This document shows, piece by piece, positions 175 to 2,792 of a stretch of DNA of 34,551 bases; position 1 is the stretch's first letter; the number at the start of each line of letters is the position of its first letter. Source of the stretch: Ignavibacteria bacterium (GTDB lineage Bacteria; Bacteroidota; Ignavibacteria; Kapaibacteriales; UBA961); the NCBI GenBank assembly GCA_947491315.1, contig CANLII010000005.1, positions 1-34,551 of the forward strand, given 5' to 3'. Under the pieces are notes generated by a model. The model was given only the letters and a program-made list of their open reading frames with translations, was not told where the DNA came from and did not search any database. The translations under genes were made by a program, and so were the position numbers.

Positions 175-1512
175 TTATTGCCAACCTTTAGTATCGAGAT
201 ATTTCGTGTCGAAATCTCCCGCTATGAAATCCTTATTATCCATCATCGCGCGATGAAAAGGAATCGTGGTATGCACGCCTTCAATGATGAATTCTTCAAG
301 CGCTCTTTTCATCTTGGCAATTGCCTCTCTGCGCGTAGGCGCAAATGTGATGAGCTTTGCAAGAAGTGAATCATAATAGGGAGGAATGGCATAGCCTTGA
401 TACATATGAGTATCAACCCGCACTCCATGTCCACCCGGGAAATTTACGGTCTTCAATACACCCGGAGATGGCCTGAAATCATGGAATGGATCTTCTGCAT
501 TAATGCGACATTCAATGGAATGAAATTTCGGTGCGGTTTGCACAAGACCGAGCTTTTCGCCGGAAGCCACAAGTAATTGTTCTTTTACAAGATCAATGCC
601 GAGTGATGCTTCGGTCACGGGATGCTCAACCTGAATACGCGTATTCATTTCCATGAAATAGAATTTCATATGCTTATCAACCAGAAATTCAATCGTTCCA
701 GCGCCTTCATACTGCACGGCCAAAGCGGCTTTCACGGCAGCATCGCCCATTTCCTTGCGAAGTTCTTCGGTCATGATCGGTGAAGGAGTTTCTTCAATCA
801 ATTTCTGATGTCTGCGCTGAATCGAACATTCGCGCTCATTGAGATGCACCGCATTGCCGAATCTATCGGCAAATACCTGAAACTCAATATGTCGTGGCTC
901 TTCAATGAATTTCTCGATATATACATCAGGATTATTGAATGCTGATTGTGCCTCATTGCGAGCCATGATATAGAGATTCTCGAGTTCATCGGGATTTTGC
1001 ACATAACGCATGCCTTTTCCACCACCGCCCGCTGTAGCTTTAATCATTACGGGATAACCCATTGCATCGGCAATTTCTTTGGCTTCTTCAACGGTTTCAA
1101 CAATGCCTGCGGATCCCGGAATGACGGGTACACCGGCGGCTTTCATGGTGTCTTTGGCCACGGACTTATTGCCCATATTACGAATAGCATGAGCGCTTGG
1201 ACCAATAAAGGTGATGCCGATTTCGGCGCAAATCTCTGCGAAGGTGTCATTCTCAGCTAGGAAACCATAGCCCGGATGAATGGCATCGGCTCCTGTGATT
1301 TGTGCTGCGCTGATGATGGCGGGAATGTGGAGATAACTTTCGCGTCCCGGTGCAGGTCCTATGCAGACGGCTTCATCGGCGAATCGGACATGGAGTGATG
1401 TTTTGTCGGCAACGGAATACACCGCAACCGTTTTGATGCCCAATTCTTTGCATGCGCGAATGACACGCAATGCAATTTCGCCGCGATTGGCTATTAAGAC
1501 TTTTTGTATCAT
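175..1512 (-). CDS. accC: Acetyl-CoA carboxylase, biotin carboxylase subunit
   Basis: Biotin carboxylase carries out the ATP-dependent carboxylation of biotin on AccB, the first half-reaction of malonyl-CoA formation. The 445-residue length is the normal family size. Visible motifs are the N-terminal [17 protein letters not shown] (about 4-20), the ATP-grasp glycine loop GGGGKGMR (162-169), the catalytic [13 protein letters not shown] segment (289-301, with R292 and E296), and the biotin-carboxylase C-terminal domain. The start chosen is the ATG giving [12 protein letters not shown], because homologues begin there. In-frame starts at 1542 (ATG) and 1548 (TTG) add residues with no family match, and neither has a better ribosome site. 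It lies 48 nt downstream of accB in the same run. AccA and AccD are not in the window. Confidence 0.96.
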
Positions 1513-1560
1513 GATTTCGGAGTGTATCGTGGAAGAATACATTCCCAATGAATGGAATGC

Positions 1561-2031
1561 TTAATCAGGCTTGACAATGAACAAAGGTTGATTATACTCA
1601 ACCGGCTGGGCATTATTTGCAAGAATGCTCACAATGGTACCTGAAACATCGCTTTCGATTTCATTCATGAGTTTCATCGCTTCAACGATGCAGAGCGTTT
1701 GACCAGCGCTTATGTGTGATCCCACTTGCACGAATGCAGGCGCATCAGGTGATGGAGAGCCATAGAATGTGCCGACAATCGGGGAGAGAACTGTATGGTT
1801 GTTTTCATCCGCACTGGGTGCACTTATAAGCATCGTTTGTGCCGGTGCAGGTAGAGTTTCCACACCATGTGCCGGAACATGCGCTTGTGCAATTGGTGCC
1901 ATTTGTGTGACAACTTGATCCGGACCACGCTTTGAAACAGATACGGTTGTACCTTCTCCTTCGATCATAAGTTCGGTGGCTGAACTAGCATCAAAAATGG
2001 CCAGTAATTCTTTCAAGTATTGTAGATCCAT
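1561..2031 (-). CDS. accB: Acetyl-CoA carboxylase biotin carboxyl carrier protein
   Basis: AccB carries the biotin that AccC carboxylates and that the carboxyltransferase uses to make malonyl-CoA. The protein has 156 residues. A short N-terminal helical part ([16 protein letters not shown]) is followed by a Pro/Ala-rich linker (about 45-75) and the biotinyl/lipoyl domain (about 80-156). The biotinylation motif is EAMKLMNE with K120 as acceptor. The start at 2031 is preferred over an upstream in-frame start at 2067 because GGAGAAG sits five bases before it and because family members begin MDL.YLK. It precedes accC on the same strand and follows efp. The intervening segment can fold into two competing hairpins, described separately. 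Confidence 0.96.
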
Positions 2032-2053
2032 GTTTTCTTCTCCGTTGATAATG

Positions 2054-2092
2054 AAAAAGCGTGCCACTGAATGATATCAGCAGACACGCTTC
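2054..2092 (-). terminator. Intrinsic-terminator-like hairpin between efp and accB
   Basis: On the minus strand AAGCGTG pairs with CACGCTT (7 bp, about 25-nt loop that can itself form CTGA/TCAG), followed by a run of T and then C. It lies after the efp stop and ends about 20 nt before the accB start. It could end part of the efp transcripts. The overlap with the hairpin at 2081-2106 suggests alternative folding. The stem is short, so terminator strength is uncertain. Confidence 0.45.
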
Positions 2093-2110: not shown

Positions 2111-2674
2111 TTACTCTTTCACGCGTTCAACATATTCGCCATTGCGAGTATCAATGCGGAGCATGTCTCCTTCATTGACAAAAATGGGAACTTGAATAAT
2201 TGTTCCAGTTTCAACTGTTGCAGGCTTGAGAACATTGGTTGCGGTATCACCACGAACTCCGGGTTCAGTATGTGTAACACGCAGATTCACATGCGAGGGC
2301 AATTCAACCGATAACACAGATGTTTCATCGGATGTTAATTGCACCGCTTGATTTTCTTTCATGAATTTTGCAACATTGCCAACAATTTTCGTATCAACAG
2401 GGATTTGATCATAGGTATTCACATCCATAAATACATAGGATTCACCATCACGATACAAATATTGAAAATCATTGCGCTCAACTCTCACGAATTCGATGGT
2501 TTCACCGGAACGATAGCGATTCTCAAGTAATTTTCCGGTGCGGAGCACACGAAGTTTCACTTGATAAAATGCACGGAGATTTCCGGGGGTACGATGCTCG
2601 CTTTCCAATACTTGGCATAATTCGCCATTATATTTAAGAAAAGCTCCAACTCGTAAATCGGCTGTGGTTGCCAT
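2111..2674 (-). CDS. efp: Translation elongation factor P, Asn-tipped loop form
   Basis: EF-P binds stalled ribosomes next to the peptidyl-tRNA and promotes peptide-bond formation at polyproline stretches. The protein has 187 residues, the usual length, with the three beta-barrel domains recognisable: the N-terminal KOW-like domain (1-65), the middle OB domain (about 66-128) and the C-terminal OB domain ending GEYVERVKE. The start is fixed by MATTADLRVGAFLKYNGE; the open frame continues upstream through the tRNA gene but is not coding there. At the loop that normally carries the modified Lys or Arg, the sequence is TPGNLRAF, so Asn32 is at the tip. From memory this loop form is shared with Chlorobi EF-P. 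The genes for EpmA/EpmB or EarP are not in the window. Confidence 0.96.
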   Translation of the reverse strand: MATTADLRVGAFLKYNGELCQVLESEHRTPGNLRAFYQVKLRVLRTGKLLENRYRSGETIEFVRVERNDFQYLYRDGESYVFMDVNTYDQIPVDTKIVGNVAKFMKENQAVQLTSDETSVLSVELPSHVNLRVTHTEPGVRGDTATNVLKPATVETGTIIQVPIFVNEGDMLRIDTRNGEYVERVKE

Positions 2675-2721
2675 ATACCATCCAAATTGTGAGAAAGTCT
2701 TAGGGATTTCCCTGAACAGTG

Positions 2722-2792
2722 AGGTCTCGAGCGGATTCGAACCGCTGTAGGGGCTTTTGCAGAGCCCTGCCCAGCCACTAGGCGACGAGACC
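2722..2792 (-). tRNA. tRNA-Cys (GCA anticodon)
   Basis: The minus strand folds as a complete cloverleaf. The acceptor stem GGTCTCG pairs with CGAGACC, the D-arm is GCCTAGTGGCTGGGC, and the anticodon stem GGGCT/AGCCC encloses the loop CTGCAAA with anticodon GCA. The T-arm is AGCGG-TTCGAAT-CCGCT. The discriminator base is U, as expected for tRNA-Cys. The CCA end is not encoded; the DNA continues CAC after the discriminator. It lies 47 nt upstream of efp on the same strand, behind a good consensus promoter. Confidence 0.95.

Follow-up and report, generated by a model that had tools for sequence, protein, structure and literature searches.

We analysed a window of 34,551 nucleotides (contig CANLII010000005.1 of an Ignavibacteria bacterium), in which an efp gene lies between a tRNA-Cys gene and genes resembling accB and accC (Table 1). 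The product, elongation factor P (EF-P), is the factor that helps ribosomes past runs of proline, and in most bacteria its tip carries a modified lysine or arginine.

Table 1. Features of the efp locus, and the deoxyhypusine synthase (DHS)-like gene found elsewhere in the same genome
Feature	Position	Strand	Basis
efp, elongation factor P, 187 aa, single copy	2111..2674	-	translation; TIGR00038 and NF001810 over cut-off; single EFP_N match
β3-β4 loop TPGNLRA, residues 29-35	2570..2590	-	translation, alignment, AlphaFold2 strands
Asn32 codon AAT, loop tip, E. coli K34 position	2579..2581	-	sequence, alignment
Leu33-Arg34, +1/+2 residues switching with Asn tip	2573..2578	-	loop counts, independent pairs
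G142-D143-T144, domain III GDT motif	2243..2251	-	sequence
accB-like (biotin carboxyl carrier), directly downstream of efp	1561..2067	-	biotinyl motif EAMKLMNE
accC-like (biotin carboxylase), downstream of efp	175..1548	-	ORF
tRNA-Cys (GCA), upstream of efp	2721..2792	-	ARAGORN
DHS-like enzyme (DS)	L188:5531-6520 (own genome, C12)		TWGK catalytic Lys kept

The EF-P locus and the tip of its loop

The gene product matches curated EF-P models over its full length with a three-domain fold, scoring 238 bits against TIGR00038 (cut-off 185.8) and 241.8 bits against NF001810 (cut-off 161), and EF-Ps are its top Foldseek matches over about 185 columns. Its ATG start at 2674 agrees with the M(A/S)TTADLR start conserved in relatives. 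A 300-residue, upstream-starting version returned by the ORF finder is spurious, since the tRNA-Cys gene lies inside it and relatives start at M(A/S)TTADLR. The GDT motif at G142-T144, which an EF-P canonical in all other respects should carry in domain III, is well kept among relatives, with G142 invariant and D143 and T144 at least 90% conserved. Around the gene, accB and accC homologues are found in 63 of 80 relatives and a gcvH-like gene in 46; these are the only neighbours kept, and no conserved modification gene adjoins efp in the 80.

At positions 2579-2581 the plus strand reads att, hence AAT (Asn) on the minus strand, and the loop reads H27-R-T-P-G-N32-L-R-A-F36 in context. With seven residues, TPGNLRA equals E. 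coli KPGKGQA in length, and when phmmer aligns the protein with solved EF-Ps, N32 meets the tip Lys of PGKG with no gap. In the AlphaFold2 model (mean pLDDT 88), the seven-residue loop joins strands 18-28 and 36-43 and has N32 at its centre; no register shift of the loop was seen in its secondary structure. The initial annotation had proposed Asn in place of Lys or Arg at the tip, and codon, translation and gapless alignment bear this out, with neither Lys nor Arg aligning at the tip. Nor does the genome hold a canonical Lys-tip EF-P that would undo the claim: a search of all 2.3 Mb (100% complete) for a second EFP_N domain found none, so there is no Lys- or Arg-tip paralogue to rescue it. This single-copy EF-P is canonical outside the β3-loop-β4 hairpin, and it is conserved by purifying selection.

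Distribution of Asn tips and coupling to the +1 and +2 residues

All 80 close relatives carry HRTPGNLRAF, written in 77 distinct nucleotide versions with AAT or AAC as tip codon in every case, in a set that is partly ascertained because NLRAFYQV was one of its six search seeds. Among the carriers are Kapaibacterium, Ignavibacteria and MAGs labelled Chloroherpeton and Melioribacter. Since all 80 keep the loop through 77 nucleotide versions, the Asn loop is not a chance occurrence. In an unbiased sample of the phylum (198 genomes, 196 with an EF-P match), the pattern TPGNLR[A/G]F was found in 76 genomes and the reversed control pattern in 0. The match in G012 is not located at its efp gene, which leaves 75 of the 196 EF-P-bearing genomes; a second TPGNLRGF match in G137 is without EF-P and was discarded. 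Direct reading revealed other Asn-tip loops in at least 7 further genomes of the phylum, such loops being NPGNWRAF (families f7, f8, f13 and f43), TPGNKRGF (f18 and f41), HTPGNLRAM (f15) and TPGNLHAF (G125).

In the phylum sample, the Asn tip occurs in at least 17 families. The initial annotation had judged the Asn loop to be apparently lineage-wide, and the relatives and families support this and carry it beyond the lineage, but Lys- or Arg-tip EF-Ps lie inside the Asn clade (G109, G128 and the paralogues of G196 and f16). The Asn tip is widespread in the phylum, yet not universal.

Some genomes carry more than one type of EF-P. In family f16, G080 and G138 have tandem EF-P genes (L155:2811-4050 and L156:1783-3018) with the loops HRTPGNLRAF and HRTPGKGGAF, the Lys-tip copy being derived from inside the Asn clade; in G099, the same two types lie on separate contigs. 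G156 of family f11 has an Asn-tip EF-P (L148:3014-3571; HVTPGNLRAFYR) and other f11 members have HVKPGKGGAF, which makes them a natural test pair for co-changing genes. Family f19 (L221, L224-L228, L230) has Arg-tip EF-Ps (NKTARAAAK), in whose genomes the EarP model finds nothing in a search without a positive control. Divergent EF-P-like proteins with the loop HAGSGQM, and Gln at the aligned tip, are present in G200 (L229) and G220 (L231), and G220 encodes an Arg-tip EF-P (HVKRGRGGAF) as well.

We read the tip and its neighbours in 173 EF-Ps, 126 of which have an Asn tip. In these, +1 is Leu in 117, Trp in 6 and Lys in 3, and +2 is Arg in 125 and His in one (G125). Lys-tip loops have Gly at +1 in 36 of 36 cases and Arg at +2 in one. 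This picture is unchanged when the ascertained set is left out, with 46 Asn-tip sequences. Every column that tells Asn-type and Lys-type EF-Ps apart falls within residues 18-53 of domain I; domains II and III contribute no such column.

A maximum-likelihood tree of 107 EF-Ps requires 6 changes of the Asn state, at least 5 of them forced by well-supported branches; being unrooted, the tree does not polarise the oldest of them. With the loop columns removed from the tree, there are six independent pairs whose tips differ. Among these, Asn tips go with Arg at +2 by 5:0 and one tie, and Lys or Arg tips go with Gly at +1 by 5:0 and one tie (p = 0.06 in each case, the floor of a sign test on 5 informative pairs). 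Gly is also found at +1 in the Lys or Arg tips nested in Asn clades, namely those of G128, G109, the f16 tandem paralogue and the G196 paralogue. Arg at -4, considered as a further part of the switch, does not track the tip state (0.6 of 6 pairs). Across the tree, the tip switches together with +1 and +2, as P-G-N-[L/W/K]-R versus P-G-K-G-x. The coupled change at L33 and R34, which the initial annotation missed, is the most informative feature of this loop.

Action of the Asn-tip loop and alternative readings

In E. coli EF-P, K34N is inactive, and changes of residue 35 or 36 alone lose most activity (PMC6544042). Given the inactivity of K34N, compensation elsewhere in an Asn-tip loop is to be expected; given that a simple swap fails in the E. 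coli loop, a working Asn-tip loop should need partners. The near-invariant ones are a bulky side chain at +1 and an Arg at +2. In the mechanism we propose, Asn32 would support the turn of the loop, the +1 residue would shape that turn, and Arg34 would contact the CCA end without modification. Arg34 would probably supply the cationic contact. For the actinobacterial loop, which has Pro at +2, action without modification is reported. EfpL acts with an unmodified Arg tip (PMC11611912), and these two cases show that modification-free routes exist. Against the Arg34 model stand G125, with His at +2, the p = 0.06 floor of the sign test and the AlphaFold2 model, which has no register shift. On balance, we see about an even chance that this is a functional asparagine-type EF-P that would need no known modification at its tip, the Arg34 contact included.

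The known modification enzymes were also sought. None of the 61 genomes of the class has EpmA over the cut-off, at which the E. coli control scores positive; the best match to the EpmA model in the own genome is a LysS-like frame of 550 aa. EpmB has no match in the own genome. The best own match to the YmfI model reaches 232 bits, short of the 238 cut-off; it proved to be FabG, which sits beside a FabD-like gene in a fab operon. Thus epmA, epmB and ymfI, which the initial annotation had named as genes to look for, are absent over cut-off. EarP was found in 0 of 198 genomes, a weak negative because no control genome in the sample carries EarP and none gave a positive. No known modification of Lys is possible on Asn.

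An undescribed enzyme might instead modify Asn32 or Arg34, as occurs in the Lys and Arg types. More than half of bacteria are without a known EF-P modification enzyme (PMC6544042), the +2 Arg (125/126) is as strictly conserved as a modified residue would be, and there is precedent for chemistry that differs between lineages. However, epmA and epmB cluster with efp (PMC2821294), whereas only accB/accC and gcvH-like genes are conserved beside efp here. EarP is without a match, though no control genome was positive, and the Lys reversion of G128 inside the Asn clade is likewise without EpmA/EpmB over cut-off. We regard such a modifier as the main rival, with a clearly lower probability than the unmodified reading. 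That Asn32-x-Arg34 is the substrate of an undescribed modification across much of Kapabacteria/Ignavibacteria/Chlorobi, and hence a fourth kind of bacterial EF-P activation, strikes us as rather unlikely.

Alternatively, the Asn-tip EF-P could be weak or inactive in proline rescue, with ABCF ATPases or changes in ribosome or tRNA compensating. The inactivity of E. coli K34N fits this reading, and ABCF factors also resolve such stalls (PMC11381351). The tRNA-Pro(UGG) of the own genome (C2:229520-229594, L305) has a 10-nt D-loop, with an extra base after G19; in E. coli, a 9-nt D-loop is reported to be essential for EF-P, and a change in its size to abolish EF-P action (PMC4890201). However, 10-nt D-loops are also common in Lys-tip genomes, EF-P is kept with strict conservation of its loop, and PP motifs are not depleted. 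Observed/expected PP is 0.82 in the own genome (about 400 kb), compared to 0.71-0.86 in three Lys-tip genomes and 0.99 and 1.15 in two other Asn-tip genomes, and ValS retains its PPP motif (MPPPNVTG). Nothing suggests proline avoidance in the lineage, and a weak or inactive EF-P seems to us improbable.

Across the sample, the tRNA-Pro D-loop is 10 or 8 nt in Asn-tip families and never 9 (0/10, versus 7/13 of Lys/Arg families; p = 0.007, uncorrected for kinship, with a pattern that sees GCGC stems only). We leave D-loop length as a lead, and not as the tip's partner, given the 10-nt loops with Lys tips and the uncontrolled kinship.

A further candidate is the DHS-like enzyme (DS, PF01916), which could add an aminobutyl group to the Asn-tip EF-P. 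The own genome encodes it, as do all Asn-tip genomes of the sample. Its catalytic Lys is kept, and a 2019 report has already suggested EF-Ps with a Lys or Asn tip as possible substrates of a DHS-like enzyme (PMC6544042). DHS alkylates an amine, however, and Asn carries an amide. The own DS scores 60-110 bits against cut-offs of 304-500, below every curated DHS, homospermidine and polyamine model; with no tip Lys either, a hypusine-like modification by DHS does not fit. The DS proteins of Asn-tip genomes fall into three clades that are distant from one another (about 25% identity), and bacterial DHS homologues (SpeY) produce homospermidine (PMC9992855). Between the own-type DS and its counterparts in two Lys-tip genomes, identity is 85% (G109) and 79% (G029). 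We reject DS as a tip-specific modifier because it is near-identical in Lys-tip genomes, and aminobutylation of this EF-P by DS is very improbable. The own-type subfamily, 68-85% identical across distant genomes and with the TWGK Lys, scores far under all curated DHS/homospermidine cut-offs and is an unnamed polyamine-type enzyme.

Finally, a sequencing error, a pseudogene or a lone chance mutation at this codon, for which only the rarity of Asn in reference collections speaks, has next to no chance of being right and is ruled out by the repetition of the loop in 80 relatives (77 DNA versions) and at least 75 phylum genomes, in keeping with the view of the initial annotation that the Asn is not a mutation.

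Comparison with known types of EF-P

Lysine-type EF-Ps (β-lysylated by EpmA/EpmB in E. coli, 5-aminopentanolylated in B. subtilis) share with this protein the fold, the seven-residue loop, Pro at -2 and Gly at -1. Here, by contrast, the tip is Asn32 and not Lys, +1 is not Gly, and the modification enzymes are absent over cut-off: EpmA and EpmB for the lysylated form, with YmfI under its cut-off for the 5-aminopentanol form. The arginine type, rhamnosylated by EarP, likewise has Arg in the loop, which here stands at +2; it differs in having Arg at the tip without Pro at -2, a residue selected against in that type, whereas this loop has Asn at the tip and Pro30 at -2, and EarP is without a match in a search that had no positive control.

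EfpL (YeiP) shares with our model a proposed modification-free action through a loop Arg. Its loop has nine residues and an Arg tip, compared to seven residues here, and the protein scores 120-124 bits against EfpL cut-offs of 216-264 (120 against the 264-bit cut-off). The actinobacterial PGKGP EF-P (C. glutamicum, PDB 6s8z) shares a compensating +2 residue, Pro there and Arg here, but has a Lys tip and Gly at +1, unlike the Asn-Leu of this loop; the actinobacterial loop is cited as stiffened (PMC11611912).

A wider question touched here is how EF-P acts in the more than half of bacteria that are without a known modification enzyme. Whether the answer proves to be a loop that works unmodified or an enzyme still missing, it would account for a large bacterial group, and the coupling of P-G-N-[L/W/K]-R versus P-G-K-G amounts to a short, testable prediction for a three-residue change. 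In the literature searched, we found no EF-P paper on a PGNLR or TPGNL loop and none stating the +1/+2 coupling, the phylum map, the reversions or the evidence against DHS.

The closest match is the published Asn type, with Asn at 34, Pro at 32 (i.e. -2) and genomes without EpmA/EpmB (PMC6544042 and PMC2821294), all of which hold for this EF-P. Asn tips were reported in 2010 for 2.2% of EF-Ps lacking yjeA/yjeK (PMC2821294) and in 2019 by Volkwein et al. for 2.23% of 1166 EF-Ps, always with Pro at -2 (PMC6544042). Because of these earlier reports, the protein belongs to a class that is already known, though uncharacterised. Their available text gives frequency and Pro co-occurrence only; new here are the coupling of the tip to +1 and +2, the map of the lineage across the phylum, the reversions, and the findings that speak against a DHS specific to this tip.
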